The position numbers and the translations under genes were made by a program. From contig JAFLDQ010000008.1 in NCBI GenBank assembly GCA_017302355.1, positions 1 to 44,988 on the forward strand: 44,988 bases of DNA, given 5' to 3'. Source of the DNA: Dechloromonas sp. (GTDB lineage: Bacteria > Pseudomonadota > Gammaproteobacteria > Burkholderiales > Rhodocyclaceae). Under the pieces are notes generated by a model. The model saw nothing but the letters and a program-made list of their open reading frames with translations, had not been told where the DNA came from and made no database searches. Every line of letters starts with the position of its first letter. The first letter of the stretch is position 1. Positions 693-44,988 of the stretch are shown here, in pieces.

Positions 693-998
693 CGCCCCGC
701 CTCCTTTCGTCACCCGATAGGTGAGTGTCTTTACAACCTCAACTCTACCGGATCGTCCGCGTGGCGGGGTTCTTCAGCTTCTATGCAATTTCAATCGCGG
801 AACTCGGGGTGGGACACGGGCATTGGTGGCGACGAAGCCAGGCGGGTCGGCGAAGCGACCGTTGGCCAGTCGCGCGCCGACCGACCCGCCGGCAAGCGCG
901 ACGCACGAGGTATCGGTGTCGCTGTGTTGGGCGTAAACTCGGGGCTCCACCCGGGGCCGGGTCCGGCCCCTCGTCAAGACCACCTTCGGAGAGACATC
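693..998. other. Gene-free stretch between the transposase and the VOC gene
   Basis: About 300 bases without a supported gene. It must contain the end of the IS1380-type element, since the transposase starts at 692, but without the other end of the element the terminal repeat cannot be matched. It also holds the ribosome binding site of the next gene (GGAGAG at 988-993). Nothing else is recognised. Confidence 0.5.
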
Positions 999-1367
999 AT
1001 GATCGGCTACGTTACCTTGGGCACCAACGATCTGGCTCGCGCCACGTCGTTCTACGACCAGCTTTTTGCCGCGATGGGCGGCAAGCGCGTTTGGGAAACC
1101 GAACGCGGCCTCGGCTGGGGCGCCAGCCTGCAGGCGCCTTCGCTCGGGGTGATGAAGCCCTTTGACGGGCGGCCCGCGACCGTGGGCAACGGAACCATGG
1201 TGGCGCTCGCCGTTGCCAGCCGGGAAGAAGTCGACCGGCTCCATGCGCTGGCGCTCGGACTCGGGGCCACCGATGAAGGCAAGCCGGGCGAGCGCTTCGC
1301 CGGTTTCTATGCCGCGTATTTTCGCGACCTGGACGGCAACAAGCTGAACTTCTTCCATATGGGTTAG
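999..1367 (+). CDS. VOC-family (glyoxalase/bleomycin-resistance-like) protein
   Basis: A 122-residue single-domain protein beginning MIGYVTLGTNDLARA, with the typical vicinal-oxygen-chelate opening in which a strand leads into an FYDQLF helix, and ending in the usual RDLDGNKLNFF strand. The family includes glyoxalases, dioxygenases and antibiotic-binding proteins that use a metal held by His and Glu residues; a substrate cannot be assigned from sequence. The ATG at 999 is chosen because GGAGAG lies just upstream and the VOC fold begins there. The same frame is open far upstream, but that part is antisense to the transposase and is not coding. It stands alone before the SGNH hydrolase, with a 23-base gap. 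Confidence 0.88.
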   Translation: MIGYVTLGTNDLARATSFYDQLFAAMGGKRVWETERGLGWGASLQAPSLGVMKPFDGRPATVGNGTMVALAVASREEVDRLHALALGLGATDEGKPGERFAGFYAAYFRDLDGNKLNFFHMG

Positions 1368-1390
1368 CCCCGGCGTCGGGATCCGCCGGC

Positions 1391-2182
1391 ATGGCGCATG
1401 AACCGGCGCCCATCGACGGCCTGCTGAGCTGGCTGCCCGCCCTGGCGCTCTCGCCGCTGCTCCTGGCGCAGGGCGTGTATGTCCGCCGCGTGACGCCCCG
1501 GTTGCCGGAAGCGCCGGGCAGCCGGTCTGGCGTCGCCGGTGGCGGACCGTCGCTCAAGCTGCTGATCCTTGGCGATTCCGCCGCCGCGGGGGTGGGCGCC
1601 GCATCGCAGGCGACCGCCCTGGCGGGGCGCCTCGTCGACGAACTGATGGCGGATTTCACGGTGAACTGGCGGCTTTGCGCGGAGTCGGGCGTCACGACCC
1701 GCGACCTCATCGCCCGGCTCGCGGGAGTCGCCGGCGGGCGCTTCGACGTGGCGATCGTCTCGATCGGCGTCAATGACGTCATTACCGGCGGGCGAACCCG
1801 GCAATGGACATCTGCCCTGGCCAGCTTGCTCGACCTGCTGGAATCGGCCTTCGGCGTCCGCCACGCCCTGCTCTCGGCGTTGCCGCCGATGCACCGCTTC
1901 ACCGCCTTGCCGCAGCCATTGCGCTGGTGCGTCGGCCTGCGCGCCCGGCGTTTCAACGATGAACTCCTGCGCTTTGCCGGCCGCGACGGGCGCTGCGCCG
2001 TCGTTGCGCTGGACTACCCGCGCGATCCGTCCTACCTGGCGCCGGACGGATTCCATCCGGGCGAGCCGGCCTACCGCCACTGGGCCGCCGCGGTCGCCGC
2101 CAGCATCCGGCAATTGCCGTCAGGCCAGGCCGGCGAGGATCGCCCGGCCCGATCATCCGCCAACGGTCGACGCTGGGATTGA
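1391..2182 (+). CDS. SGNH/GDSL-family hydrolase
   Basis: A 263-residue protein with an N-terminal hydrophobic segment (about residues 11-28) followed by an SGNH hydrolase domain. Block I is GDSAAAG (residues 61-67, nucleophile Ser63), block III is the GVND motif, and block V is DGFHPG, carrying the Asp and His of the triad. These enzymes are esterases or lipases of broad specificity; the N-terminal hydrophobic stretch suggests a membrane-anchored or exported enzyme. It follows the VOC gene on the same strand, and the sirtuin gene begins 80 bases later. The physiological substrate is unknown. Confidence 0.9.
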   Translation: MAHEPAPIDGLLSWLPALALSPLLLAQGVYVRRVTPRLPEAPGSRSGVAGGGPSLKLLILGDSAAAGVGAASQATALAGRLVDELMADFTVNWRLCAESGVTTRDLIARLAGVAGGRFDVAIVSIGVNDVITGGRTRQWTSALASLLDLLESAFGVRHALLSALPPMHRFTALPQPLRWCVGLRARRFNDELLRFAGRDGRCAVVALDYPRDPSYLAPDGFHPGEPAYRHWAAAVAASIRQLPSGQAGEDRPARSSANGRRWD

Positions 2183-2261
2183 CATCCGGGGCTGGCAGGA
2201 GGCTGTTCATGCGCTTGCCAAGTGTTCATAATCGGCGCATCGCCAATGGACTTCGCACGCC

Positions 2262-3053
2262 GTGGATACGCTCACCGCCATCGATCGCATCTCCCGTCGC
2301 CTTGCCGCGGCGCGCCGGGTGCTGTTCATCACCGGCGCCGGGATCTCGGCGGATTCCGGGTTGCCCACCTATCGCGGGGTCGGCGGGTTGTACAACGATG
2401 AAGCGACCGAGGACGGGCTGCCGATCGAGACGGCGCTGTCCGGCGACGTGTTCGCAGTCCGGCCGGACATCACCTGGAAATATCTGGCCCAGATCGAGCG
2501 GAACTGTCGCGGGGCGATGCCCAATTCCGCCCATCGCGCCATCGCGGCTCTCGAACAGGTCATGGCGAAGGTCGTCGTGTTCACCCAGAACGTCGATGGT
2601 CTGCACCGCAAGGCCGGCAGTTCCGACCTCATCGAGATTCACGGGAATCTCCAGGAACTGGTCTGCACCGCGTGCGACCATGACGAGACTGTCGACGACC
2701 TGGCGGGGCGCGCGCTGCCGCCGCGTTGCCCGGCCTGCGGCGGCGTCCTGCGGCCGAACGTCGTGCTCTTCGGGGAGGCCTTGCCGATGGAAGCGATGGC
2801 GCGTTTCTCGGATGCCCTGGAGGAGGGCGTCGACATGGTGTTCACCATCGGCACCTCGGGCGTCTTCCCCTACATTGCCGAGCCGGTGGTCTGGGCGGCG
2901 CGCGCCGGGATACCGACGGTCGAGATCAATCCCGTGCAGACACGGCTGACGCGCTTCGTCGAACATCACCTGGCGCTTGGCGCCGCCGAGGCCATGACGG
3001 CGATCATGGCCTCCCTCGACCGCCACGGTCTCCCCGGCGTTCCCCGTTTCTAG
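2262..3053 (+). CDS. NAD-dependent protein deacylase, SIR2 family
   Basis: A 263-residue sirtuin that removes acyl groups from protein lysines using NAD+. The GTG at 2262 is the best start (MDTLTAIDRISRRL). Visible motifs are the NAD-binding GAGISADSGLPTYRG (from residue 25), TQNVDGLHRKAG (108-119), the catalytic His127 in HGN, two zinc Cys pairs (Cys135/138 and Cys156/159), and the C-terminal GTSG and EINP motifs. All key residues are present, so the enzyme is predicted active. A palindromic repeat element lies shortly downstream. Confidence 0.95.
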   Translation: MDTLTAIDRISRRLAAARRVLFITGAGISADSGLPTYRGVGGLYNDEATEDGLPIETALSGDVFAVRPDITWKYLAQIERNCRGAMPNSAHRAIAALEQVMAKVVVFTQNVDGLHRKAGSSDLIEIHGNLQELVCTACDHDETVDDLAGRALPPRCPACGGVLRPNVVLFGEALPMEAMARFSDALEEGVDMVFTIGTSGVFPYIAEPVVWAARAGIPTVEINPVQTRLTRFVEHHLALGAAEAMTAIMASLDRHGLPGVPRF

Positions 3054-3112
3054 AGGCGCGGCGCGGGATCGTCGCGAACGCTGGCGGTGCGGCCAGTGCT
3101 TCCAGGGAGGCG

Positions 3113-3208
3113 CTGATTTATTCCCGATTTGTCATTCCGGCGAAGGCCGGAATCCAGAAAAATCAAGGTGCTGGACACCTGCTTTCGCCGGTGTGACGAA
3201 TAAATCAG
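3113..3208. repeat. Short palindromic intergenic repeat (MITE/REP-like)
   Basis: A 96-base element between convergent genes. Its ends are perfect 11-bp inverted repeats, CTGATTTATTC (3113-3123) and GAATAAATCAG (3198-3208). Inside is a strong hairpin, ATTCCGGC-GAAG-GCCGGAAT (3134-3153), and a second partly complementary arm near the right end. The inner part reads as the familiar IPAKAGIQ-type repeat found in many copies between genes of proteobacteria. It could serve as a transcription terminator for both flanking genes. Confidence 0.7.
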
Positions 3209-3215
3209 TGTTTCC

Positions 3216-4559
3216 TCAGTGCGAACGCGCGCGATCGAGGTCGGCGCGGTTCTTCTCGTCGCTGTAGATGGCGGTGGGCGCGGGCTGGCTGCTGGCGAAG
3301 CAGGTGACGACGACGTTGGCCAGCGTTTCCGCCTTGTGCAGGACGTCGACCGCGCAACGCCCGAAGACGCTGTCGATGGTGGCCAGCAGGTTGCGCGCAT
3401 AGGGTGTTTCGAGCTTGCCGTCGAGGATCAGGTTGGCCAGCAGGACGCCGTCGGGTTTCAGCACGCGGCGCGTGTCTTCCCAGAATTCGCGGGTGACCAG
3501 GTGGCCGGGGATCGAGGTGTGCGAGCTATAGACATCGACGACGACGGCGTCGAAGCGGCTCTCGGTGACGGCGATGAAGCGGCGGGCGTCGTCGGCGATG
3601 AACTCGCCACGCGCCGCTTCGTGCAGGAAGTGTTTCTCGGCGATGTCACGGATTGCCGGATCGATGTCGACATAGGTGTAATGGTTGACCGGCTCGCGGT
3701 GCGAGAGCGTGAAACCGCCGGCGCCGAGGACCAGGATGGCGCGGTCGCGGAATTCAAGTTCTTCCAGAAGAATACGTCGCAAGTGATTGATATAACGTGT
3801 GTAGTTAGGCGGTTCGGAATCGTCGATCAGCGAGGCGGTGGATTTGTTGACCCAGAAGGCGCGCGGGTTTTCCTGGCCGGGCAGGGCTACCGGGCCGACG
3901 ATGTATTCGGCGTAGGCAGTGTCGGCCGTGACCTCGTGATGGAGGTTGAAGGCGGCGGCGATCGCTGCGGTCGACGCGCAAAGAAAGGCGGTTTTCAGGT
4001 TGCGCCCGGCGAGCAGCAGCGTTCCGGCGACCAGCAGCGCGGAGCACGCGAATACCGCCGCGGAAACCCCCAGCCACTGCATCACCAGCAACGACAGGCT
4101 GAGCGACCCGAGGAACGAACCGAGCGTCGACCAGTAGAGCGCCATGCCGCTCGCCTCGCCGGTGCGCGCGTGCTGCATCAGGTTGGTCAGGATCGGCACC
4201 GTCTGGCCGAGCAGCCAGGCGAGCGGGCAGAGGACGCCGCCGATGAAGAACAGATATGCCAGCAGCGCCGGCGGCAGGTGGGCGAATATCCAGTCGACGC
4301 TGACGCCGGCCAGCCCGACCCCGGCGAGCGCCGCCGCAATCAGGAAGTTGCGGGCGACGACCGCCGTGTAGTCGCTGGCGACCCGGGCGCCGGCGGCATA
4401 ACCGAGGGCCAGCGCGAGCAGGAAGAAGCCGATGGTCGGCGCGGTGACGACGATGGAACTGCCGACATGCGGCACCAGCCGGCGCAGCGCGATGATCTCG
4501 GCGCCGAGCGAGGAGAAGCCCTCGATGAAGACGATGATGTAGATCAGCGTGCGCGACAT
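3216..4559 (-). CDS. Membrane-anchored spermidine synthase-like protein
   Basis: About 447 residues. The N-terminal half holds roughly seven hydrophobic membrane segments (LIYIIVFIEGFSSLGAEI onwards). The C-terminal half is a spermidine-synthase-type Rossmann domain with a nucleotide-binding GAGGFTLS, an acidic YVDIDP strand and VVVDVYSS. Such fused proteins are annotated as polyamine aminopropyltransferases, but the true substrate of the membrane-bound group is not established. The start at 4559 is preferred because it lies just past the rarD stop (TAA at 4567-4569), with a GGGGAT ribosome binding site inside the end of rarD. A start at 4580 would overlap rarD. It is probably cotranscribed with rarD. 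Confidence 0.85.
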   Translation of the reverse strand: MSRTLIYIIVFIEGFSSLGAEIIALRRLVPHVGSSIVVTAPTIGFFLLALALGYAAGARVASDYTAVVARNFLIAAALAGVGLAGVSVDWIFAHLPPALLAYLFFIGGVLCPLAWLLGQTVPILTNLMQHARTGEASGMALYWSTLGSFLGSLSLSLLVMQWLGVSAAVFACSALLVAGTLLLAGRNLKTAFLCASTAAIAAAFNLHHEVTADTAYAEYIVGPVALPGQENPRAFWVNKSTASLIDDSEPPNYTRYINHLRRILLEELEFRDRAILVLGAGGFTLSHREPVNHYTYVDIDPAIRDIAEKHFLHEAARGEFIADDARRFIAVTESRFDAVVVDVYSSHTSIPGHLVTREFWEDTRRVLKPDGVLLANLILDGKLETPYARNLLATIDSVFGRCAVDVLHKAETLANVVVTCFASSQPAPTAIYSDEKNRADLDRARSH

Positions 4560-4566
4560 CGACGGG

Positions 4567-5454
4567 TTATCCCCGATCACGGTACTTGCCCCACATGCTC
4601 CAGCTGAACGCGAAGAGTCCGATCCAGATCAGCGCGAAGCTGACCAGCCGTGCCGTCTGCAGCGGTTCGCTGAAGAGCCAGACGGCGGTCACGAACTGCA
4701 GGGTCGGGTTGATGTACATCAGCATGCCGACGGTGGCGAGGTCGAGGCGGTGGGTGGCGGCGGCGAAGGCCATCAGCGGCAGGGCGGTGACGATGCCGGC
4801 GCCGGCCAGCAGGGTTGCCGTCGCCAGGTCGTGGCCGGCAAAGACGGCGTGCCCGCTGCGCGCCTGCCACAGCGCCCAGAGGCCGCAGACCGGCAGCATG
4901 GCCAGCGTTTCCAGCCACAGGCCGGACAGCGCATCGACCGGCACCTGCTTGCGTACCAGCCCGTAGGTGCCGAAGGTGGCGGCGAGAAACAGCGAAACCC
5001 AGGGCAGGCTGCCGAGCGCGACGACCTCGTTGGCGATGGCGGCGATGGCCAGGCCGACGGCGATCCATTCGAGCCGGTTCAGGCGCTCCTTGAGCACGGC
5101 CAGACCGAGCAGTACGTTGACCAGCGGCGTCAGGAAATAGCCGAGGCTGGAGGCGACCACCTGCCGGTTGGCGACCGCCCACAGGAAGACCAGCCAGTTG
5201 CTGCCGACCAGCAGCGCGGCCAGCGCCAGCATGGCCAGATGGCGCGGAGAACGGAAGGCCGCGCCGACCTTGCTCCAGGCGCCGCGCAAGGTCAGCAGCA
5301 GGGCGACGAACAGGCAGGCCCAGACGGCGCGGTTGGCCAACACGTCCATCGGTGAAACGTGCGCCAGCTGGCGGAAATAAAGGGGAAAGAAGCCCCAGAT
5401 GCCGTAGGCCAGCAGGCCGAAGCCGACGCCGGCAAGGTGGGGGTTCGCTTTCAT
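4567..5454 (-). CDS. rarD: EamA-family transporter RarD
   Basis: A 295-residue inner-membrane protein of the drug/metabolite transporter superfamily with about ten hydrophobic segments. The opening GLLAYGIWGFFPLYFRQL and the NRAVWACLF and LGYFLTPLVNVLLG segments are typical of RarD. The ATG at 5454 (MKANPHLAG) is chosen because the family begins there. A start at 5496 would add a non-conserved, non-hydrophobic leader. The substrate is not known. It is the first gene of a two-gene reverse-strand operon with the spermidine-synthase-like gene. Confidence 0.92.
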   Translation of the reverse strand: MKANPHLAGVGFGLLAYGIWGFFPLYFRQLAHVSPMDVLANRAVWACLFVALLLTLRGAWSKVGAAFRSPRHLAMLALAALLVGSNWLVFLWAVANRQVVASSLGYFLTPLVNVLLGLAVLKERLNRLEWIAVGLAIAAIANEVVALGSLPWVSLFLAATFGTYGLVRKQVPVDALSGLWLETLAMLPVCGLWALWQARSGHAVFAGHDLATATLLAGAGIVTALPLMAFAAATHRLDLATVGMLMYINPTLQFVTAVWLFSEPLQTARLVSFALIWIGLFAFSWSMWGKYRDRG

Positions 5455-5863
5455 GGCCGCATCTTGCCACATCCTGCCGGCCGGCGCCGGCGGCATGGCG
5501 TCCGGCGGGCGGCTGGCCGGCAGCGCGAAACTTTCGCGCGCAATGCCCGACTAAAGGGAAAGGGCGAAGTCGACCGCCGCGGATGGCAGCGCCAGCGTTG
5601 GGACGACGCGAAGCAGGCGGCGGCCGTTCGCTCGACGGGGCCGTGGGGTGCCGCGAGGGAATGGCCCCGTGCTGCCCAGGCGAGCGTTCCTGCCCGCTTC
5701 CTGCCCTGGTCCCCCGCAGCGACGGGCGGGAGCCTGATGTTCCACCTGTCGCGGTCGACCGGAACTTCGGGCAGGTTTTCGCTGGTCCTGCCGTGAATGG
5801 GCGCGGCGCACGGGAAGAGAGGGCGTTCACATTCGTTGCCATTTGGTGAATCATGCGACTCCG
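5455..5863. other. Divergent intergenic region with a perfect palindrome
   Basis: About 400 bases between rarD (reverse) and the GGDEF gene (forward), with no gene I can support; the small open frames here have no recognisable protein. It holds a near-perfect palindrome, GCGCGAAA-C-TTTCGCGC (5523-5539), about 70 bases upstream of the rarD start. This could be an operator or a structured RNA end. No clear sigma-70 promoter was recognised. Confidence 0.45.
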
Positions 5864-7039
5864 ATGAAAGCGAGTTTCCCGACGATGACCAAGCCGATTC
5901 CGGCGCAGCTCCATCCGTTGACGCTGCGCTTTCGCGACCCCGAGGTCGAGCGCGCCTTTGCCGGCCAGCTGGTGCCGCGCCTGCGCGTGCAGGGGCGAGT
6001 GGCGATTCTGGTCGGCATGCTGATCTATCTGATGTCCGGGTTTCTCGACGGCCTGCTGGTGCCGCCGGAACATCGGTTGACCACATGGGTGTTTCGCATG
6101 TCGGCCCTGGCCTATGTCGGCCTTGTCTTCCTGCTGACCTTCCGGCCGGCGTTCGAACGCTTCAACCAGTTGCCGCTCGGGTCCACCGGGCTGGTCGTCG
6201 CCGCCAGCCTGATCGGGATTCTCTATTACCTGCCGCTGGAGGCCACGCCGTACTTCTACCCCTGTCTGATGCTGTCGACCTTCTACACCTACAACTTCAT
6301 CGGCACCCGCTTCATCTACGCGCTGGTCATCGATATCGTCGTGGTGATCTCGTACAACCTGATTCTCGGCGGGCTGCGCGAATTTCCGTTGCCCACGCTG
6401 CTGAGCCACAATTTCTTCATCATTTCGGCCAACCTGATCGGCGGCGGCGCCGGCTATCTGGCCGAATACCACCGCCGGGAGCTTTTCGTCCGCGAGGCCG
6501 AGCTCGAGCGCGAGCGCCAGCACCACCTCGAGCGATCGCTGCACGACCGCCTGACCGGCCTGCCCAACCGCGAATTGCTCGAGGACCGCCTGGCCCAGCT
6601 GCTGGCCCGGGCGCGCCGCGACAGTGGAACGCATGCCGGCCTGTTCATCGACCTCGATGGCTTCAAACCGATCAACGACCAGTTCGGGCATGACCGGGGC
6701 GACGCCGTGCTGCGTCTGATCGCGCGCCGCCTGGAGGCTGCGGTTCGCCAGACGGACACGGTTTCCCGGCTCGGCGGCGACGAGTTCTTCGTGCTGGCGC
6801 ATGACCTGGATACACCGGCGCGCGCCGGCCAGCTCGCGGAGAAGCTGCTTGCGTGCATTGCCGAACCGATTGCCGATGCGCCCGAGGCCGGCGGCCTCGG
6901 GGCCAGCATCGGCATCTGCGTCTTTTCCGGGGGCGTCCGCTCGCCGGAGAATCCACAAGAGATCATCCGCGCGGCGGACCAGGCGATGTATGAGGCCAAG
7001 GGCGATGGCAAGCATCGCTACGCCATCGCCACCGGCTGA
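5864..7039 (+). CDS. Membrane-bound diguanylate cyclase (GGDEF)
   Basis: About 391 residues. The N-terminal half has around six hydrophobic segments, followed by a short charged helix (EAELERERQHHLERSL) and a GGDEF domain. Visible motifs are DRLTGLPNRELLEDRL, DLDGFKPINDQFGHDRGD and an intact RLGGDEF signature. An RxxD inhibitory site (RQTD) lies five residues before GGDEF, so product feedback inhibition is likely. It should make cyclic di-GMP at the inner membrane in response to an unknown signal. The start is uncertain: TTG at 5843, ATG at 5864 and ATG at 5885 are in frame and none has a strong ribosome binding site. There is no EAL domain. Confidence 0.93.
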   Translation: MKASFPTMTKPIPAQLHPLTLRFRDPEVERAFAGQLVPRLRVQGRVAILVGMLIYLMSGFLDGLLVPPEHRLTTWVFRMSALAYVGLVFLLTFRPAFERFNQLPLGSTGLVVAASLIGILYYLPLEATPYFYPCLMLSTFYTYNFIGTRFIYALVIDIVVVISYNLILGGLREFPLPTLLSHNFFIISANLIGGGAGYLAEYHRRELFVREAELERERQHHLERSLHDRLTGLPNRELLEDRLAQLLARARRDSGTHAGLFIDLDGFKPINDQFGHDRGDAVLRLIARRLEAAVRQTDTVSRLGGDEFFVLAHDLDTPARAGQLAEKLLACIAEPIADAPEAGGLGASIGICVFSGGVRSPENPQEIIRAADQAMYEAKGDGKHRYAIATG

Positions 7040-7097
7040 CGGGCGGCAGGCGCGCACGGCCTTGCGGCGCGCTTTTTGCAGACGAAGGGGGATCAGG

Positions 7098-7412
7098 ATG
7101 GGACAAGCCAGACGGCGCGGTGACCTGGAACAGCGCATCGCGCAGGCGCAGGCAAGAATCGAGGCGACACGGCCGGAGAAACTGGTGTGCAACGGCTGCG
7201 GCGCCGACGTGACGACGATCCACCCGGTCAGCGCGCGCGGCCTTTCGGGGATCGACGCGATCTGGCTCGGTCAGTGCGACTGCGGGCAGACGACCTTTGC
7301 CGCTACGGGCGATGCCAAGGCGGTTCAGGCGTTCTTCGATGCGCTCGGTTCGGACGCCGAACTGACACTGGGCAGCCAGAGCCGCGACGGCAGCGGCCAC
7401 GAGACCGCGTAG
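7098..7412 (+). CDS. Small hypothetical protein with Cys-rich zinc-ribbon-like core
   Basis: A 104-residue protein starting MGQARRRGDLEQRIAQAQ, preceded by a purine-rich AAGGGGGATCAGG leader. A basic N-terminal helix leads to CNGCGADVTTI and, about 35 residues later, a CDCG motif, so the four Cys could hold one zinc ion. The C-terminus is acidic and then polar. I do not recognise the family. It follows the GGDEF gene on the same strand and is convergent with the DUF4124 gene. Function unknown. Confidence 0.65.
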   Translation: MGQARRRGDLEQRIAQAQARIEATRPEKLVCNGCGADVTTIHPVSARGLSGIDAIWLGQCDCGQTTFAATGDAKAVQAFFDALGSDAELTLGSQSRDGSGHETA

Positions 7413-7418
7413 GCCGGG

Positions 7419-8000
7419 TCAGCGCGTGCTGCCGCGCGGCGCGCCCGGAACCTTGTAGAGGTCGACCGGCTTCGCCGCCGGTCTGTCCGCCGGAGGCGGA
7501 TGCGGCGGACGGGGCGGGCGCGGCGGGTAGGGGTAAGCCGGGTAGTAGCCGCCATAGTAGGGCTGCTGGTAGGTCTCGGTGTAGACCGGCTCGATCTTGC
7601 CGGTGGCGTAGCAGCCGTTCTCCATTTCGCCGCGGCGCGACGAGTCGAGATTCATGCGGCCGAGCGTGTTCAGGCACTGCTGGATCGCCGCTTCCGAGGG
7701 CAAACCGCTTTCCTTGCGCTGGCGCTCGCGTTCCTTGCGCTCTGCCGCCTCGTCGGCGCGGCGCTCGCCTTCGAGCCGGTCCACACGTTGTCGCGCCCGC
7801 TCGGCGTCGCGCTCGGCGCGGACGCGCGCTTCCGGCGACACCACATCCTCGTCGACTTCCCTGAGCGTGCGGGCGCCGCCGGCGCACGGCTCGCTGGAAA
7901 TCTGCGTGCTGCCGTCCGGCTGCCGACACTTGTAAGCCTGGCCGTGCGCGGGCAGGGCGACGGCGAGGAAGGTCAGCAGGAGGTATGGGGTCGTCTTCAT
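7419..8000 (-). CDS. DUF4124 domain-containing exported protein
   Basis: A 193-residue protein with a Sec signal peptide (MKTTPYLLLTFLAVALPAHG, cleavage near residue 20). A DUF4124 motif follows (AYKCRQPDGSTQISSEPC), in which two Cys probably form a disulphide. The middle is a highly charged Arg/Glu helix (about residues 55-100). The C-terminal third is rich in Tyr and Pro (YYGGYYPAYPYPP, then PRPP repeats), resembling a flexible envelope segment. Function is unknown; DUF4124 proteins are periplasmic. The ATG at 8000 is chosen for its signal peptide. Confidence 0.8.
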   Translation of the reverse strand: MKTTPYLLLTFLAVALPAHGQAYKCRQPDGSTQISSEPCAGGARTLREVDEDVVSPEARVRAERDAERARQRVDRLEGERRADEAAERKERERQRKESGLPSEAAIQQCLNTLGRMNLDSSRRGEMENGCYATGKIEPVYTETYQQPYYGGYYPAYPYPPRPPRPPHPPPADRPAAKPVDLYKVPGAPRGSTR

Positions 8001-8205
8001 GCTTGCTTTATAGCGCAACCCAGGACAAATGGGGAGCGGAACGCGACGCGCATCGTTCTTGCGGTTCGGCACGGTGGCTTTGCGGTCGCCGGCGGCGCCT
8101 TTCCGGAACTCGTGGCCGGGGTGCTGTCCAATCAATGAAACCTGCCATCGCCGTCGGCGTTCCTCCGTTGCTTCCGGCGTTACCGGCGGGTAAAGGAGGT
8201 CGATC

Positions 8206-8814
8206 ATGATGATGTCCCACATTCCCCACATGCTGGTTTCCGAAAAGGACGGCTGGGAAGAAATCGATCGCTCGCATTTCTCCGCCCGCTGGTTCTTCAA
8301 GAGCCTGGTGCTACCGATGTCGCTGTTGCCGCCGGTGCTCTACGCCTTCGCCGAGCTGGTCCATCCAGGCGCCATCTTTCCGCTTTCGGTGCCGGCGCTG
8401 ACGCCGATGCAGTTGGCGGTTTCGGGCGTCGTGTTCTACGTCGTACAACTGCTGATGGTCGGCTACATGGCAATGCTGATCCAGCGCATGTCGCTGGCCC
8501 GCGACCATGACCCCGGCTACGACAGCGCCTACGCGCTGGCCGCCATCGCGCCGGTGCCGCTGTGGCTGGCTTCGCTGTCGCTGCTGGTGCCCAGCCTCGG
8601 CTTCGTCCTCGCCGTCGGGGCAGTCGCCTGGGTGGCGTCGATCCTGCTGATCCGGCATGGCGTTCGCCCGCTGCTCCATATCGGCGACGAGAAGACCGCG
8701 CACCATGTCGCCAACGTGGTGACCGGCGCGGGCATCGTCGCGTGGATCGGCCTGCTGGTGGTCAGCGCGATGATCCTCAGCATCCTGCTCGGCGTCTGGT
8801 CGGCGATGCTGTAA
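8206..8814 (+). CDS. Yip1-family integral membrane protein
   Basis: A 202-residue protein with about five hydrophobic segments, beginning near residue 30 (FFKSLVLPMSLLPPVLYAF) and ending LLVVSAMILSILLGVW. The arrangement and the N-terminal amphipathic part fit the bacterial Yip1 domain family, whose role is unknown. An unusually strong ribosome binding site, AAAGGAGGT (8192-8200), lies five bases before the ATG. No neighbour suggests a pathway. The following intergenic region ends in a strong terminator hairpin at 9014-9045. Confidence 0.75.
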   Translation: MMMSHIPHMLVSEKDGWEEIDRSHFSARWFFKSLVLPMSLLPPVLYAFAELVHPGAIFPLSVPALTPMQLAVSGVVFYVVQLLMVGYMAMLIQRMSLARDHDPGYDSAYALAAIAPVPLWLASLSLLVPSLGFVLAVGAVAWVASILLIRHGVRPLLHIGDEKTAHHVANVVTGAGIVAWIGLLVVSAMILSILLGVWSAML

Positions 8815-9013
8815 GCGGCGGCGTCCTCCGCCGGAAGCGAGGCGCCTTCCCCAGCCCGCGCGGGCGGCGGACCAGCGCCTCGCCGGTTTCTCCGGGCGCC
8901 TTGCCCGCGCCTGCAGCAGCCGGACGTTAAGAACCAGGTTTTCCAGCACCGGCCTGGCGGCTATCGGCGCCGACTCGCTGAAGTTGTGAGGCGTCCGGGC
9001 GCACCAACGGCAA

Positions 9014-9045
9014 ACGCCTCCGTTGCGGAGGCGTCTTGATTTTTG
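9014..9045 (+). terminator. Intrinsic terminator
   Basis: Perfect 8-bp stem ACGCCTCC (9014-9021) and GGAGGCGT (9027-9034) with a five-base loop, followed by CTTGATTTTT. It most likely ends transcription from the Yip1-like gene, about 200 bases upstream. Confidence 0.8.
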
Positions 9046-9076
9046 GCCTTTGTTGGCGGTCGACCGCAGCAGCCGG

Positions 9077-9289
9077 TCAGAGGATCATCCCGGCTACGCA
9101 GACCTTTCGAATATCGCGCCGGAAATTCAGAAATGCGCGCTTATCGCTGGGGGTGCAGGGCACGCTGATGCTGCGGTGTCCATGGGGCGGCCACAAGCGG
9201 CCATGTTTGCCGCCCCGGGAAAAGCGCCAGTTTTCTTTCAGAAGTTGCCGGACAAGGCAGTCGATTTCCTTCATTGAGCAGTATTTCAT
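9077..9289 (-). CDS. HicA-like small protein (possible mRNA interferase)
   Basis: A 70-residue basic protein (MKYCSMKEIDCLVRQLLKEN...). It has the layout of the HicA/YcfA double-stranded-RNA-binding-like fold: an N-terminal helix, WRFSRGGKHGRLWPPHG with a His in the position of the HicA catalytic His, a strand SISVPCTPSD, and a final basic helix (KRAFLNFRRDIRK). HicA toxins cleave mRNA and are normally paired with HicB; no HicB frame is visible on either side, so this may be a solitary member. An AAAGGA ribosome binding site lies seven bases before the ATG at 9289. The IS701-like element begins 28 bases upstream and has probably replaced its promoter. Confidence 0.6.
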   Translation of the reverse strand: MKYCSMKEIDCLVRQLLKENWRFSRGGKHGRLWPPHGHRSISVPCTPSDKRAFLNFRRDIRKVCVAGMIL

Positions 9290-9292
9290 GCG

Positions 9293-9311
9293 GCAATCCT
9301 TTCGGGATTGC
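9293..9311 (-). promoter_or_regulatory. Hairpin over the ribosome binding site of the HicA-like gene
   Basis: GCAATCC (9293-9299) and GGATTGC (9305-9311) form a perfect 7-bp stem with a five-base loop. In the reverse-strand transcript the loop and one arm contain the AAAGGA ribosome binding site of the 9289 gene. It could limit translation or be a protein-binding site. It also lies five bases from the left end of the insertion element, so it might instead mark a preferred insertion target. Confidence 0.45.
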
Positions 9312-9316
9312 TCGCG

Positions 9317-10826
9317 TAGTTCTACTTTGTCAGATTCGAAAGCAACCATCTGCCGTGTCATTTTATATAATGCAACCTGTTGTTTTAAATAATTCTTTTG
9401 AGGTTTGCCATGGATATGACGGCCTCAATATGTCAACTGCATCGCCACGCTTGTTGCCTCGGTTTGCGAGCGGCTTGAAACCCACTTTTCCCCGTCTTCC
9501 GGATTGTTCCGCTCCTCGACACGCAGTGTCGGGGACAGCGCAAGAGGCTATGTTCGCGGTCTCTACCAGGCCACGCGGCGCAACATGGAGCGCATGGCCG
9601 ACGTCGTCGCCGGCAGCGACTACCAGCGGATGCAGCACATGCTGAGCGTCTCCGACTGGGATCACGCCGGCGTTGTCCGGCAGGTTGCCATCGAAGCGCA
9701 GGCGTACTTTCCCAAGGGCGGCCGGGCCTTGGTCATCGACGAAAGCGGTTTCGCCAAGAAGGGCGAATGCTCCGCCGGTGTGGCCCGGCAATGGAATGAC
9801 CGGCTGGGCAAAGTCGACAACAGTCAGGCCGGGGTCTTCGCCGCGCTCACGCACGGCGAGACGGCCTGCCTCATCGACGCCGAACTCTTTCTGCCCGAGC
9901 ACTGGGCCACGGACAATGCCCGTTGCGCCGAGGCCGGCATCCCGGAAGAGGCGCGGGTCTATCGGAGCAAGACCGAAATGGCCCTTGGCATGATCCGCCG
10001 CGCCCGGCGCCATGGTCTGTCCTTCGACTGGGTGGCCGCCGACGGCGGCTACGGGAAGCAACCCTGGTTTCTCGACGCGCTGGACGATGACGGCGAGCGC
10101 TTTCTGGTCGATGTGCATGCCGACCGGACGATCTACCTTGCCGACCCGGCGCCCCGCATTCCGCAGCGACGCGGCCGGGGCCGAACGCCGACCCGCCGGG
10201 TCGCGGAGGCTGCGCCGACACGTGTCGACCACTGGGCCGCGGCACAGCCGGCGTCGGCCTGGCGCCGGATGAGTTGCGCGACGGCGAGAAGGGGGAGGTT
10301 CTGGCCGAGTTCCTGACCGGTCGCGTCTTTGTCTGGAACGGCAAGGCCGGGCAGGCGCGGCACTGGCATCTGCTGGTACGACGGGACATCGGCGGCGACC
10401 AGCGGAAATTCTGCCTGTCGAACACGAGACCCTCGGCTTCGCTGCGCCAGTTGGTCACGATGCAGGCGTCGCGTCATTTCGTTGAACGGGCGCTGGAGGA
10501 TGCCAAGAGCGCTTGCGGCATGGCGCAGTATCAGGTGCGCGGCTGGCTCGCCTGGCATCGCCACATGGCGCTGGTGCTGATCGCGCATCTCTTCCTCACC
10601 AAGGAGCGCCTGGCGCTGCGCGATACACACCGGCTACTGTCTTGCCTCGATATCGTTGAAATGCTGCGACACAAGCTTCCTTCGAAAATCAACTCGGACG
10701 AAGACCTCATAACCTCCATCCAGCAACGCCACCGACGACGCTTCGAGGCAGCCAAACATCATTACGAAAAACTCGGCCTTACCCCGCCGCCATCATTCGG
10801 CGGGGGAATCTGACAAAGTAGAACTA
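9317..10826 (+). mobile_element. IS701-like insertion sequence with intact ends
   Basis: A 1,510-bp element bounded by perfect 21-bp inverted repeats: left 9317-9337 (beginning TAGTTCTACTTTG) and right 10806-10826 (its exact reverse complement). One DDE transposase reading region fills it. The stop codon lies inside the right repeat, as is common in compact elements. No target-site duplication is obvious: the left flank ends CGCG and the right flank begins ATCA. If the first three bases of the repeats are target-derived (TAG/CTA), the flanks still do not match. Because the transposase is frameshifted, movement would need a helper copy. Confidence 0.88.
9410..10813 (+). pseudogene. Frameshifted IS701-family DDE transposase
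   Basis: The coding path is split over three frames. An ATG at 9410 opens a frame that stops after about 22 codons. Homologous-looking sequence resumes in a second frame (FASGLKPTFPRLPDC), then from about 9500 in a third (SSTRSVGDSARGYVRGLYQATRRNMERMADVV). That third frame holds the body of the protein, including the conserved ALVIDESGFAKKG and VAADGGYGKQPW blocks that carry catalytic Asp residues. Near 10,265-10,275 the frame shifts again to LRDGEKGEVLAEFLTGRVF, which reads to the stop at 10811-10813 and includes the ALEDAKSACGMAQYQVRGW block with the likely catalytic Glu. At least three frame changes argue for a dead gene, or for consensus errors if the reads were error-prone. Confidence 0.85.
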
Positions 10827-10853
10827 ATCAGCTGCCGATCTGTAATCCAGTCA

Positions 10854-10873
10854 GCACCGCTGGTTTGCGGTGC
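10854..10873 (-). terminator. Hairpin downstream of the acyl-CoA-binding protein gene
   Basis: GCACCGC (10854-10860) and GCGGTGC (10867-10873) form a perfect 7-bp stem with a six-base loop, about 30 bases past the stop of the reverse-strand gene. There is no good T-run after it, so it may stabilise the 3' end rather than terminate by itself. Confidence 0.35.
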
Positions 10874-10904
10874 GACAGGAGATGTCGTCAGCAGCCTGTA
10901 AGTG

Positions 10905-11162
10905 CTAGCCCTTCAGCTTCGTGATCAGATCGACGTAATCCCGCATTGCCACCTCCGGCGCGGTGCCCTGCAGGGCCGCCCAGGCGTCATACTTGGCGCG
11001 TCCGACGAGGTCGGTGAAGCCCGGACGTTTTCCCGTGATATCCCCCTCGCTGGCCTGTTTGAACAGGCCGTAGATGCGCAACAGGGTCTGGTTGTCCGGG
11101 CGTTGGGCAAGCATCTTGGAATCGGCGACGGCTGCGTCGAAGGCTGCTTTGAGTTGGCTCAT
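10905..11162 (-). CDS. Acyl-CoA-binding protein (ACBP)
   Basis: An 85-residue protein (MSQLKAAFDAAVADSKML...) of the usual ACBP length and four-helix layout. The signature block reads LLRIYGLFKQASEGDITGKRPGF, followed by GRAKYDAWAAL. These include the Tyr and Lys residues that bind the CoA moiety in eukaryotic ACBPs. It sequesters and delivers long-chain acyl-CoA in the cytoplasm. It is divergent from the WS/DGAT acyltransferase gene at 11237, with 74 bases between the two starts. That pairing suggests it feeds acyl-CoA into storage-lipid synthesis. Confidence 0.92.
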   Translation of the reverse strand: MSQLKAAFDAAVADSKMLAQRPDNQTLLRIYGLFKQASEGDITGKRPGFTDLVGRAKYDAWAALQGTAPEVAMRDYVDLITKLKG

Positions 11163-34435: not shown

Positions 34436-34461
34436 CCGGTGGAAAAGTGGGCCGGATGTCC

Positions 34462-34537
34462 TGGTGGGTGCTGAGGGGTTCGAACCCCCGACATCCAGCT
34501 TGTAAGGCTAGCGCTCTACCAACTGAGCTAAGCACCC
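34462..34537 (-). tRNA. tRNA-Val (anticodon TAC)
   Basis: A complete 76-nt cloverleaf on the reverse strand. The acceptor arm begins GGGTGCT and ends AGCACCC with discriminator A and an encoded CCA (34464-34462). The D arm reads TTAGCTCAGTTGGTAGAGC, the anticodon loop is CTTACAA and the T arm contains GGTTCGAACC. It lies nine bases after the hupB stop and shares its transcript. Confidence 0.97.
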
Positions 34538-38898: not shown

Positions 38899-39513
38899 AT
38901 GCCGGATCTGCCAACCGAGCCCATCGAATCCCTGCAGAATATCAAGGGGATCGATTTCCCCGCCGACGTTCGCTTCCGCCAGATTCTGGTGACCGGCCCT
39001 CCCGGCGCCGGCAAGAGCACCCTGATCACGCGCCTCGGCGGCTGGTCGGAGGAGGGCTACCTCGACCTCGCCAGGAACCACTGGTGGCGGTCCGAAATCC
39101 TCTCCGTGCGGCCGCGGGAGATTCACCTCGGCATGCCCCTCGAGGGTCTGGACGACGCGGTGACCGTCTTCGACGCCGAGTTCTACGACCGCGATCCGGC
39201 GCCGGCGATTGATTTTGACCGTATCCAGCTTCCGCCGCGCAAACGTTTCTTTTTCAATGTTGACTGGTATCGCCGCTACGTCTTCGAATTCCTGATACCG
39301 TCGGCGGACCTGGTCTTCGAGCGCCGCGCCGAGCGGGCGCGGCACAGTACGCACGTGGTGGACAGGCAACTCAGCCGGGAAATCTGCATCGTCCAGCACG
39401 CAGCATTCGTGCGCCTTGCCGAGCATCTGCACCGGAAGGGTTTCCAGGTCTATCTGCGCGATCTGATCGAGAATCCGCCGCGGCGATTCGCCGATCCGCC
39501 GGGGCCGCCATGA
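38899..39513 (+). CDS. P-loop kinase-like protein (zeta-toxin/AAA-like)
   Basis: A 204-residue cytoplasmic protein. The Walker A motif GPPGAGKST is at residues 33-41. A later acidic strand, DDAVTVFDAEFYDRD, could supply the Walker B or substrate Asp, and RRAERARHSTHVVDRQLSREI provides basic lid-like residues. The layout resembles small nucleoside or zeta-toxin-type kinases, but I cannot name the substrate. Its TGA overlaps the ATG of the next gene (ATGA at 39510-39513), so it is translationally coupled to the metallophosphatase. A kinase/phosphatase pair acting on the same target is a reasonable guess. It stands directly behind the pit terminator. Confidence 0.75.
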   Translation: MPDLPTEPIESLQNIKGIDFPADVRFRQILVTGPPGAGKSTLITRLGGWSEEGYLDLARNHWWRSEILSVRPREIHLGMPLEGLDDAVTVFDAEFYDRDPAPAIDFDRIQLPPRKRFFFNVDWYRRYVFEFLIPSADLVFERRAERARHSTHVVDRQLSREICIVQHAAFVRLAEHLHRKGFQVYLRDLIENPPRRFADPPGPP

Positions 39514-42500
39514 ACCTGCTTGCCAACCGCCGGCCGATCACGGTCACGAGGCTTCTGGCTCCGCTCAAGCGGATGCTGACGCGGCTGGGGGCCGGCCCGG
39601 GTCATGAGATCCGGCTGCGCAGCAACTACCGGCTGGGCGACATCAAGGTCCGGGTCTCCTTCGACCGTGTACCGATCGAAATCACTCTGGGTCAGGATGA
39701 CAAGAAACTCCATCTCTATCACGAGACCCGCATCGACGAGCGCGGGAAGGCCGCCAGGACGGGCAACTTCGTCATCGTCGATCCCGCCGGAGAAGCCGGC
39801 CGGATCGCCGGCTTCCTGCGCCTGACGCCGAGAAGCTGGGTCTCGCTGGGGTCGGGGGACCGCATCCAGCAGGCGCTGTTCAACTATCCGGAGGCGGTCG
39901 ACGAGGAACACCTGGTCATCATCCAGGGCCCGGAATCGCTGGTCTTCCGCAATCTCGGCGGCGCCGGTTCGACGATCGGCCGCTTCGCCAGCGATGTGCG
40001 CGGCACACGGGAGGGCAGCTACCGCCGCCTGCGCGAGATCTTCGGCGGCCCGATCGAGCCGCTGCCGGCGGACGCGGCGCTGGTATTGATTGAACAGGTC
40101 ATCGGGGTCATGCAGCACGAGGCCTATCGGCCGCGGAGCGACTGGGGCCTGCCCGGCGGACTGGTCGTGCTGCCCGGCAGTCTGACCCCGATCGTGGTCG
40201 CCGACCTGCATGCACAGATCGACAACCTGCTGACGGTGCTCAGTCAGAACGCCTTTCTCGATGCGCTCGAGGATGGCAGCGCCGCCCTGATCATCCTGGG
40301 GGATGCGGTCCACTGCGAGGAGGACGGGAAACTCCGCGAGATGGACGGTTCGATGCTGATGATGGATCTGATCTTCCGGCTCAAGTTGCGCTTTCCGCTG
40401 CAGGTGTTCTACATCCGTGGCAACCATGATTCCTTCACCGAGGACATCGCCAAGGATGGCGTCCCGCAGGGGCTGCTGTGGGCGAGGGAACTGGTAGCCC
40501 GCCGGGGTCAGGCCTATCGCAAGGCGATGGACGATTTCTATCGCCTCCTGCCGTTTGTCGTCGCCTCGACGGATTTTCTCGCCTGCCATGCGGCAGCGCC
40601 GAAAGAGAACGTGACCAGGGACATGCTGGTCAATATCCATCGCCACCCCGATCTCGCCGTCGAACTGGTCAACAACCGGCAGTTTCAGCCGAGCCGGCCC
40701 AACGGCTATGGCCGGGGAGACGTCAAGCGCTTTCGCCGGACGCTGGACCTTCAGAAGCACGCGACCTTCATCGTCGGTCACACGCCGCTGGATGCCGAAA
40801 GCACGATGGTGGCCGTTGCCGAACCCGGCCGCCCGCGGGTCGAGTCCGCCCCCTTCCGGGTTTGGCCCGTCGCGCCGTTGCCCGGGACGCAGACACTCCC
40901 GCAACTGGCCCTGGAAGCGATCGGCGTCGAGTCTGCCACCCGGCGGGAAGCCCAATCCGGGGCATTCGAAGTTCGCGTGTCCAGTCTCACGCCGTTGACC
41001 ACACCGTTGCGGGTGACTTTCAGCACGGATGCCGCGTTGGAAGTCTCCCTGCCGACCGAAGTCGTGTTGCCCGCCACCCCGCCGTATCAGGCCATCGTCA
41101 CTCTCACCAATCTCAACGATCTCGTCGCCGATGGTCACGCGCGCGTCACGGTGCGGGCCGAGGCTCCCGGCTTCCTGTCCGGTTCCTGGACCTTCGTGAA
41201 CGAGGACGACGAAATCCTACCTGTGTTTCTCGTACTGCCCGATTCCGTCGAAGAGGGCAGCGGACGCCAGACCATCGGCCAAGTCGTGCTGGAGGCGCCC
41301 ACGACTCATCCCGTGGAAGTGCGCCTGAACGCTGACGCTCCGTTGCGCGTTCCCGCCACCGTTTTGATTCCGGCGGGTCAATCCGCGGCCGCGTTCGAGT
41401 GGTTTGTGGACGACGATGCCGTGGTGAATCTCGGCCAACCGTCCGCGCGAATCACGGCCTCGACGTCAGCGGGAACGGCGGAAGTCGGGGTGCGAATTCA
41501 GAACGACGACCGGGAGGGACTCTCGGTGGAGTGGCCCACCGAGATTGTCGAAGGACAGACCCACACCGCCTGGCTGGTTCTGCAAAGCGGCTACGACCTG
41601 GAGATGACCTTTCGCCTCCAGAGCAGTTCGGAGCGAATTCAGGTCCCGGCGACCGTGACCGTGCCCGCTGGTGTCGCCCGGGTTCCGATTCCCCTGGTCT
41701 GCCCCAACAACACGCAGGCAGAAGGCCCCTTTTCCAGTGAGATCTGCGTGTCCCTCGCGGACCGGTTGGCGGTCTGCAATTACGTGTATGGAGCGGATGA
41801 TGATGTTCAGCCGTTGGACGAACTCGCTCCGTTCACGCCTTCGGTGATTTGGTCCGGTCAACCCTTCGTCTTCGAAGCTTGGGCCCGGCGAAATCAATCC
41901 GTCCAGAGAACCAATCTGCTGGGACAACTCGCCGTCGAGGCCAGTCCGACCGTGGCCACCTTGATGCCGAACCCGAATCCAGTGGCGTTCACCCTGGGAC
42001 AACTTCGCGAGACAATCACCCTCCAAGGTCAGGGTCTGGGGCTACGCTTGAGCCTGCGCGCGGGTGGCCTCACCAACACCACCGCGCCCTTCGATCTGCT
42101 GCGGGGATTTGAGCGCACCAATGCGTTCCTGGATCTGGCGCTGTTTCCCGGTCGGGGAACGCTGCTGCTCTCGGCCGGCACCGAGACCAATGCCACCGGC
42201 GAACTGCAGGAACTGGATCCCCAAAGCGGAGTGGTGCTCCGTACCCTGACTCTACCGCGACCGGGAAGTCATCTGGCTGTGGCGGCAGATGGCTCCGTGG
42301 CTTGGATCGCCTCATCGTCGGATACCGTTCAGAGAATTGATCTGCTGAACTGGCGCTTCGATCGGGAATGGCCACTCGGGCCGCAGGCGACCAATCGAGC
42401 CGCTCTGTCACTCGCGGTGTTGCCGGGTGGCAGCGAACGCATCGTGACCTTGGAACGTGCCATCGTCCCCGACGGTAGTGAACCGGTTCTGGCGGCGTAC

Positions 42501-44988
42501 GACGCCGGGGTGCGGCGAACCAACACCCCCATCATTCCCTCCGGCTTTGCTCTGAATGACCTAATACCCGGACGCACCTCGACCGAGGCGTATATCTCCA
42601 CTGCCTCCGTTCTGGCCCGACTCCGCGTGACCGAGGCGGGTGTGGAACTGCAGGAACAAGGCTTCGGTTCAGGAAGCGTTTCACAAGCGCCCAATGTCGT
42701 GTTGGCCGGGGACCGTTTGTACACCGGTTATGGCCGGGTCTTTTCGGCCGATACCCTCGCCATCGAACTCGAAGCCCCCATGGACAGCTGGAACTTTTAT
42801 CAGGTCATGCCCCTTCCAGATCGCGGCCTGGTCGGATTCGTCTATGCGAACAGCGAGTTCCGTCTGTTGGAGTCCACTTCGTTCGGACTGCGCAGCCAGC
42901 ATGGCCTGCCCAGCGGCAATTTCCCAGGGGGAGCCGCTCCCGGCCGACTGGTTCGCTGGGGACCTAGTCAATTCGCCCTGCTCACCGGCAACGGACAACG
43001 ACTGCTGGTGTGGGAAACTCCGCAACTCGCCGAAACCACCGCTGACCTCGCCCTCTCGGTGGAGGCCCCGGCGGAACTCCCTTCCAGTGTGCTACCCTCG
43101 CTCGGCTATGGAGTGCCCTGGACCCTTCACGTTACCAACCGTGGTCCCGGCATCGCCTATCGGGTGGCAGTTTCCTCCGAACAGGCACTACCAAGCGAAC
43201 TGGGCTCCCTGGCCCCGGGGGAACACCGGGAAGTCCTCCAGCTGCGCGGATCTGTCCCGGTCGGATTCATTCGGGATCGGCTGACCGTCACGTCCTTCAC
43301 TCCCGATTCGCAGCCGGCCGACAACACTCAGATCGTCGAGACGCGCATTGTCCCCCCAACCTTTGGTGAAACCCGGGGCCTGGTCTTGTACCTCCGCCAT
43401 CTCGTGGGGATGCCTGACAGCAATCGGCTTGCGCTGGCCCTGGGTCGCCTGCCGAACACCGAAGCTCCCGGCCTCGCGGTTCTCCACGCGGCCACCGCGA
43501 CGATCGAGCGAACCCGGGTGCTGGACGCCATACCCACGAAGTTGGCTCCGACCTCGGATGGCCTGGCGATCTGGGCGCTCACCGCCACCAACCGGATCGT
43601 GCGTTGGAATCTCGCCACTGACCAACTGGACGCCGCCCTGGAAGTCACCAACGACGTGGTGCTGGATCTGCTGGCTCTCCCGGGGGAACCCGACGGACTC
43701 GCCCTGGCCACTCAGAGCGGATTCGGCGTGTACCGTCAGGGCGTCCGAGTGGCTGGCGCGACGTTGCCGGTGTCCGAGGTCCGAAATCTCGCTTGGGCAG
43801 GCAACCGGCTCTGGGTCTCTTATCCGGATCAACTGCACGGGTACACCGTGACCGGCAGCGGTCTGACGGCCTACGGATCCCCAATTACTCTTCCCCCCGG
43901 CGCCGGATTTGGTCGCATCAGCGGAGACAACGAGCGGCTTTATTCCTTCAACGCCGTGGTCGAGATCGCGTCCCGACAGGTTCGCGTGGGACTGCCCGGA
44001 AATGAGTTCGTGACCGAGCCGTCCCGGGATGCGATCTACGGGATTCAGTCGTACTCCGTGTTTCGCTTCAACCGGTCCACGCTGCAGCGGGAAGCCGAAG
44101 AGGTTATTCCCGCCGGCTATTCTCCGAGCTACAACGACCTCGTGCGCTGGGGTCGTTCGGGACTCGCCGCTCGTTCGGATCAGCAGTTGATCCTGTGGCA
44201 ATCCAGTTCCGTTCCCGAAGGTCAGACCGACCTGGCCGTGGGATTGCAAATACCGGAGCTTCTGGAGCCGTTCGAACCGATTTCCGTGAGCCTCTCGGTC
44301 ACCAACCTCGGGACCGAAACGGCGGCCCGGGTCAGGCTCCAGCTGCAGGCGCCCAATGGGCAACTTCTGGCCCTGACGCCCCCGACCGCGTTTGCCCGAC
44401 TCGACAGCTACTTCCTGGAAGTTCCAGAACTCCCCGCCGGAGGGGTGACCAATCTGACGGTAATGTTCCAGACCTTCAGCACCTTCTTCGGGGGCAGCGG
44501 CAGTGTCACCTCAGCCGCCCGAGATCCGAATCCCGAGAACAACCAGCGAAGCTTCAACGCTCCGGTCCAATACCCGACGGCTGACTTGTCGATACTCCGA
44601 GTGGAGGCACCTGAGGAGATATCCCTGGGCTCCGAGTTCACCATCCGGCTGACGCTCACCAATCAGGGTCCCAGCACGGTGACGCTGACCTCATTCGAGC
44701 TGACCAAGAACCCGGGCTACGAACTGCTTGGCGTCACCGGCGGCACCCTCAACCCCGACTGTTGTTCGGGAATCCACATCGCCTACACCGAGGCTCCCCT
44801 GGCCGCCGGTGAACAGCGGACCGTCGACCTCCGGTTCCGCGCGCTTCAGGCCGGAGCGTGGGCCTATTCGACTTACGCCAGCGGGCGGGTGACGGATCCC
44901 GCCGGGGATAACAACGGCACGAATGGACTGTTGATCATTCGTCCCCCGGAGGGTTCACCATTCCCCATCCGGGGCGGCACCGCCCAAT
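39510..44988 (+). CDS. Metallophosphatase joined in frame to a Calx-beta/DUF11 giant protein
   Basis: The frame is open from 39510 to the window edge (over 1,820 codons). Residues 1-170 are a beta-rich domain with an FHA-like end (SLGSGD, VDEEHL, NLGGAGSTIG). Residues 225-433 are a PPP/calcineurin-like phosphatase: ADLHAQ (Asp232, His234), GDAVH (264-268), GNHDS (304-308), ACHAAAP (His360) and GHTPL (423-427). Such enzymes should end within about 60 residues of GHTPL. Instead, after residue 433, the style changes abruptly to tandem Calx-beta-like repeats (40983-41815), beta-propeller-like stretches (about 42100-43030 and 43350-44220) and DUF11/CARDB-like domains (43040-43350, 44224-44570, 44577-44950). 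No signal peptide precedes these extracellular domains. A false join of two genomes is the likeliest reading; the true phosphatase gene would then end outside this sequence. Confidence 0.7.
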   Translation, partial: MNLLANRRPITVTRLLAPLKRMLTRLGAGPGHEIRLRSNYRLGDIKVRVSFDRVPIEITLGQDDKKLHLYHETRIDERGKAARTGNFVIVDPAGEAGRIAGFLRLTPRSWVSLGSGDRIQQALFNYPEAVDEEHLVIIQGPESLVFRNLGGAGSTIGRFASDVRGTREGSYRRLREIFGGPIEPLPADAALVLIEQVIGVMQHEAYRPRSDWGLPGGLVVLPGSLTPIVVADLHAQIDNLLTVLSQNAFLDALEDGSAALIILGDAVHCEEDGKLREMDGSMLMMDLIFRLKLRFPLQVFYIRGNHDSFTEDIAKDGVPQGLLWARELVARRGQAYRKAMDDFYRLLPFVVASTDFLACHAAAPKENVTRDMLVNIHRHPDLAVELVNNRQFQPSRPNGYGRGDVKRFRRTLDLQKHATFIVGHTPLDAESTMVAVAEPGRPRVESAPFRVWPVAPLPGTQTLPQLALEAIGVESATRREAQSGAFEVRVSSLTPLTTPLRVTFSTDAALEVSLPTEVVLPATPPYQAIVTLTNLNDLVADGHARVTVRAEAPGFLSGSWTFVNEDDEILPVFLVLPDSVEEGSGRQTIGQVVLEAPTTHPVEVRLNADAPLRVPATVLIPAGQSAAAFEWFVDDDAVVNLGQPSARITASTSAGTAEVGVRIQNDDREGLSVEWPTEIVEGQTHTAWLVLQSGYDLEMTFRLQSSSERIQVPATVTVPAGVARVPIPLVCPNNTQAEGPFSSEICVSLADRLAVCNYVYGADDDVQPLDELAPFTPSVIWSGQPFVFEAWARRNQSVQRTNLLGQLAVEASPTVATLMPNPNPVAFTLGQLRETITLQGQGLGLRLSLRAGGLTNTTAPFDLLRGFERTNAFLDLALFPGRGTLLLSAGTETNATGELQELDPQSGVVLRTLTLPRPGSHLAVAADGSVAWIASSSDTVQRIDLLNWRFDREWPLGPQATNRAALSLAVLPGGSERIVTLERAIVPDGSEPVLAAYDAGVRRTNTPIIPSGFALNDLIPGRTSTEAYISTASVLARLRVTEAGVELQEQGFGSGSVSQAPNVVLAGDRLYTGYGRVFSADTLAIELEAPMDSWNFYQVMPLPDRGLVGFVYANSEFRLLESTSFGLRSQHGLPSGNFPGGAAPGRLVRWGPSQFALLTGNGQRLLVWETPQLAETTADLALSVEAPAELPSSVLPSLGYGVPWTLHVTNRGPGIAYRVAVSSEQALPSELGSLAPGEHREVLQLRGSVPVGFIRDRLTVTSFTPDSQPADNTQIVETRIVPPTFGETRGLVLYLRHLVGMPDSNRLALALGRLPNTEAPGLAVLHAATATIERTRVLDAIPTKLAPTSDGLAIWALTATNRIVRWNLATDQLDAALEVTNDVVLDLLALPGEPDGLALATQSGFGVYRQGVRVAGATLPVSEVRNLAWAGNRLWVSYPDQLHGYTVTGSGLTAYGSPITLPPGAGFGRISGDNERLYSFNAVVEIASRQVRVGLPGNEFVTEPSRDAIYGIQSYSVFRFNRSTLQREAEEVIPAGYSPSYNDLVRWGRSGLAARSDQQLILWQSSSVPEGQTDLAVGLQIPELLEPFEPISVSLSVTNLGTETAARVRLQLQAPNGQLLALTPPTAFARLDSYFLEVPELPAGGVTNLTVMFQTFSTFFGGSGSVTSAARDPNPENNQRSFNAPVQYPTADLSILRVEAPEEISLGSEFTIRLTLTNQGPSTVTLTSFELTKNPGYELLGVTGGTLNPDCCSGIHIAYTEAPLAAGEQRTVDLRFRALQAGAWAYSTYASGRVTDPAGDNNGTNGLLIIRPPEGSPFPIRGGTAQ
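40790..40880 (+). other. Probable chimeric junction
   Basis: Up to about 40,805 the sequence encodes a phosphatase core in the codon style of the rest of the window. From about 40,850 it encodes Thr/Asn/Leu-rich secreted-type repeats with much more use of GGA, CCC, ACT and CGG codons. There is no stop, no start, no signal peptide and no insertion-sequence end at the change. The exact breakpoint cannot be placed by eye. Confidence 0.6.
40983..41815 (+). repeat. Three tandem Calx-beta-like protein repeats
   Basis: Three units of about 95 residues each end in an acidic turn (NEDDE near 41205, NDDRE near 41505, ADDD near 41800). Each contains a P-A-T/I-P-A-G strand pair such as RVPATVLIPAGQSAA and QVPATVTVPAGVARV. 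This is the usual calcium-binding Calx-beta pattern of bacterial extracellular proteins. Similarity is at protein level; the DNA units are diverged. Confidence 0.65.

Follow-up and report, generated by a model that had tools for sequence, protein, structure and literature searches.

A 1826-residue open frame at the end of a 44,988-nucleotide stretch of Dechloromonas sp. contig, with a truncated metallophosphoesterase and a piece of a DUF11-type protein, is very probably the product of a chimeric contig

The window, that is the whole stretch of 44,988 nucleotides of Dechloromonas sp. contig JAFLDQ010000008.1 that was analysed, contains an open frame of 1826 aa that starts at 39510 and reaches the window end with no stop codon. 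Reading of this frame confirmed the original prediction that a metallophosphoesterase passes, without a change of frame, into an unrelated large protein. Protein comparisons on both sides placed the switch in homology at 40808/40809, between codon 433 (ATG) and codon 434 (GTG). This coordinate, uncertain by a few bases, falls inside the interval of 40790–40880 that had been proposed for the change and about 20 bases to the left of position 40,830. The features at the locus are as follows.

38899..39513, forward strand: gene for a P-loop protein, the natural upstream neighbour of the phosphatase gene (67% over 202 residues to the N-terminal part of P0031)
39510..40808, forward strand: 5' part of a metallophosphoesterase gene, residues 1–433 (match to P0002; PF00149; 87% to Dechloromonas sp. 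SSD3)
40808..40809, no strand: join of two source sequences (P0002 homology stops after Met433; P0122 homology runs from Met433/Val434)
40809..44987, forward strand: internal piece of the gene for a large secreted DUF11-type protein (79% over 1394 positions to P0122 residues 268–1660; DUF11)

In the left half of the frame, Pfam recognized a calcineurin-like metallophosphoesterase domain (PF00149) on residues 228–428 with 32.8 bits against a curated cut-off of 21.5. A search with residues 1–440, in which the 7996 candidates sharing most words with the query were scored, found 518 proteins, the best of which was P0002 (486 aa); proteins of approximately 242–770 aa were admitted, a range that on its own cannot exclude a giant fusion. 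P0002 differs from the window protein at only two of 433 residues (positions 94 and 151). Directly after residue 433, P0002 continues with WLNINGIRNH and the family tail up to its stop at 486 aa, whereas the window protein reads VAVAEPGRPR. Among the best 120 of the 518 proteins, 117 carry a VGHT[PT] motif, and in every one of these a Trp is aligned opposite Val434 of the window and 59–103 residues separate the motif from the protein end. The motif is absent from P0103 (a shorter protein of 360 aa), P0116 and P0119, the last of which also has the Trp aligned opposite Val434. The window copy therefore resembles the PF00149 phosphatases of Dechloromonas and Accumulibacter (around 486 aa) throughout residues 1–433, but the complete C-terminal tail starting with the conserved Trp, present in P0002 (WLNINGIRNHHVLYSA...) and characteristic of the subfamily, is missing and is replaced by unrelated sequence. 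None of the 120 phosphatase relatives listed showed a match to the right half of the window frame at E≤1e-3. The left source gene is an ordinary 486-aa metallophosphoesterase gene encoding no secretion signal, and its product is probably cytoplasmic.

The phosphatase gene and the P-loop gene form a natural pair. The stop codon of the P-loop gene overlaps the start of the phosphatase gene at 39510 (ATGA); in Accumulibacter P0031 (733 aa) the P-loop protein and the phosphatase are one polypeptide, and in nine further listed relatives of 752–764 aa the VGHT[PT] motif is preceded by 656–661 residues. The phosphatase gene is also present, at 87% identity, in the MAG chromosome of Dechloromonas sp. 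SSD3, with which positions 10905–40813 of the window are collinear in five blastn blocks of 83–88% identity, the last block stopping at 40813. A further four pieces covering positions 954–8036 matched at 87–88% on another SSD3 stretch some 100 kb away. This collinearity and level of DNA identity indicate that the left part is betaproteobacterial and Dechloromonas-like, in agreement with what had been proposed for it.

Several other observations concern the left part. Positions 8037–10904 have no strong match in SSD3, where the flanking segments 954–8036 and 10905–40813 lie around 100 kb apart; this segment may reflect a rearrangement, genes specific to the strain or a further join. The collinearity also jumps at a tRNA-Val gene (anticodon TAC, 34461–34537), where SSD3 is longer by about 7.4 kb. 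The additional stretch, delimited by a short repeat of one tRNA-gene end, includes a 411-aa ORF that by eye resembles a tyrosine integrase; the stretch looks like an integrated element missing from the window. Two tRNA genes were the only RNA genes detected in the window with Rfam and ARAGORN. Positions 3093–3218 have several scattered partial copies (76–88% identity) in the SSD3 chromosome, like a member of an intergenic repeat family. A plasmid search returned a single record, from Aeromonas caviae, with 7% query coverage; the matched region (query 314–800) lies left of the join and is uninformative on the right part.

The right half of the frame is a piece of a different gene, cut at both ends, its right end being the window end. 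With residues 434–933 as query, 33 proteins were found from the 7990 candidates sharing most words with it. The top match, P0122 (2340 aa), showed 77% identity over 100% of the query, and the second-best 26% over 52%. In a pairwise alignment, P0122 matched the window protein from residue 433 to its last residue, 1826, with 1099 of 1394 residues identical and one gap, and the start of this alignment coincides with the end of the phosphatase homology. Ahead of the aligned part, P0122 has 267 residues that have no counterpart in the window copy; they open with a stretch resembling, by eye, a signal peptide and include a Lamin Tail match below threshold (31.5 bits for a cut-off of 34.3). The window frame begins instead with the phosphatase and, as predicted, has no N-terminal signal peptide.

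The domains named for the frame in the original prediction were borne out in part. Pfam detected the phosphatase (PF00149) and DUF11 (PF01345; 63.4 bits against a cut-off of 24.6, best stretch residues 1692–1803) in the window protein, with CARDB slightly below its cut-off, but no FHA, Calx-beta or propeller domain at E≤0.001. Calx-beta occurs only in the C-terminal part of P0122 (residues 2175–2265), outside the stretch aligned with the window. For residues 434–570 Pfam named no family, and none of three proteins compared with NCBIfam was assigned to a family. Residues 434–570 match each of P0155, P0156, P0157 and P0158 at many places, and therefore correspond to a repeated domain in distant relatives. 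The right source gene is an ordinary gene for a secreted protein of about 2300 aa with DUF11-type domains. We infer that it came from another bacterium, possibly one of the Verrucomicrobiota: just one of the 33 matches carried a lineage name, an M36 peptidase of an Opitutaceae bacterium with 29% identity, and the proposed origin in Verrucomicrobia or Planctomycetes is weakly supported by this distant match.

Separate protein searches with the two halves, as had been suggested, gave phosphatases for the left and, as the top match, P0122 for the right. A search with the junction-spanning residues 300–570, which admitted proteins of approximately 1004–3195 aa and scored 3753 candidates limited by shared words, returned five proteins at E≤0.001. 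When the two sides were compared separately by BLASTP, all five matched residues 434–570 only, and residues 1–433 had no match at E≤1 in any of them. Conversely, E=0.5 was the best value that any of the 33 right-half relatives reached against the phosphatase half: three gave chance-level values (E 0.5–0.96) and 30 no match. No protein with both halves was thus found among the candidates searched.

Codon usage was compared in 100-codon blocks using leave-one-out models of four left genes and of the right part. All four blocks of residues 1–400 were of the left type, the block of residues 400–500 was close to neutral, and of the 14 blocks from residue 500 on, 13 were of the right type (the exception being residues 1700–1800). 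Synonymous codon use therefore changes between residues 400 and 500, as the predicted difference in codon style would have it. GC content is almost unchanged across the join. At third codon positions it falls from 0.84 in the phosphatase half to 0.73 in the other half, but eight other window ORFs, which need not be genes, span 0.50 to 0.85. The tetranucleotide comparison called for in the original prediction was suggestive of a switch, the distance of the right part from the left being equalled by two of 37 left windows measured against the rest of the left part. GC and tetranucleotide composition are weak evidence; the composition measures agree with a switch at the join but would not prove one.

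Taken together, the 1826-residue frame is very probably (about 94%) the product of a chimeric contig from library preparation or metagenome assembly and not a new protein, as the original prediction had favoured. The homology switches at one point and relatives on both sides are intact, the left and right parts each continuing differently in them: the closest relatives of the left half are complete without the right half, P0122 has its own N-terminus, and no two-halved protein was found among the candidates searched, which argues for a mis-join. We infer from this that the join has a technical, not a biological, origin. The sequence left of 40808 would derive from a Dechloromonas-like betaproteobacterium and that to the right from a different bacterium, joined during library preparation or metagenome assembly, and the agreement of the two reading frames would be due to chance (about 1 in 3). 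The window is like inter-species chimeric contigs of metagenome assembly in the abrupt change of homology, codon use and collinearity at one point and in having each side intact elsewhere; it differs in that the two sides show no evident long word in common where they meet. Points against a mis-join are the in-frame join, the continuous GC content and this lack of a shared word: in comparison with the protein relatives and SSD3, no long word common to both parents was apparent, which leaves an assembly error driven by a repeat undemonstrated.

A real event of illegitimate recombination or cross-phylum transfer is improbable. In that case, part of a foreign gene for a secreted protein would have entered a betaproteobacterial phosphatase gene, and the broken phosphatase would by chance read on into a remnant that is not secreted. 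Such an event could give the same abrupt, in-frame junction with no long shared word apparent, but the sequence does not return to betaproteobacterial DNA at any point in the 4.18 kb that follow the join, where homology to P0122 continues to the last residue of the window; moreover, the nearly identical P0002 has an intact gene and the codon style is not ameliorated. Homologous coding sequence extends up to the join on either side and so leaves no space for a mobile element there. The 24 bases spanning the junction had no exact match in viral contigs, which is expected for a cellular contig and carries little weight. Nothing found favours real recombination. A selected fusion protein, combining the phosphatase with Calx-beta/DUF11-type domains in a function of its own, can practically be dismissed: the reading frame is long and includes the catalytic phosphatase region (the PF00149 match), but the extracellular-type part lacks the signal-peptide N-terminus seen in P0122, the phosphatase has lost its tail with the conserved Trp and no candidate searched had both halves, the last two being the grounds on which a new domain architecture was rejected.

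On the preferred reading of a chimeric contig, a sequence that would otherwise suggest both a phosphatase fusion of a new kind and gene transfer across phyla is accounted for by two ordinary genes, and the betaproteobacterial genome should not be credited with the sequence to the right of 40808.
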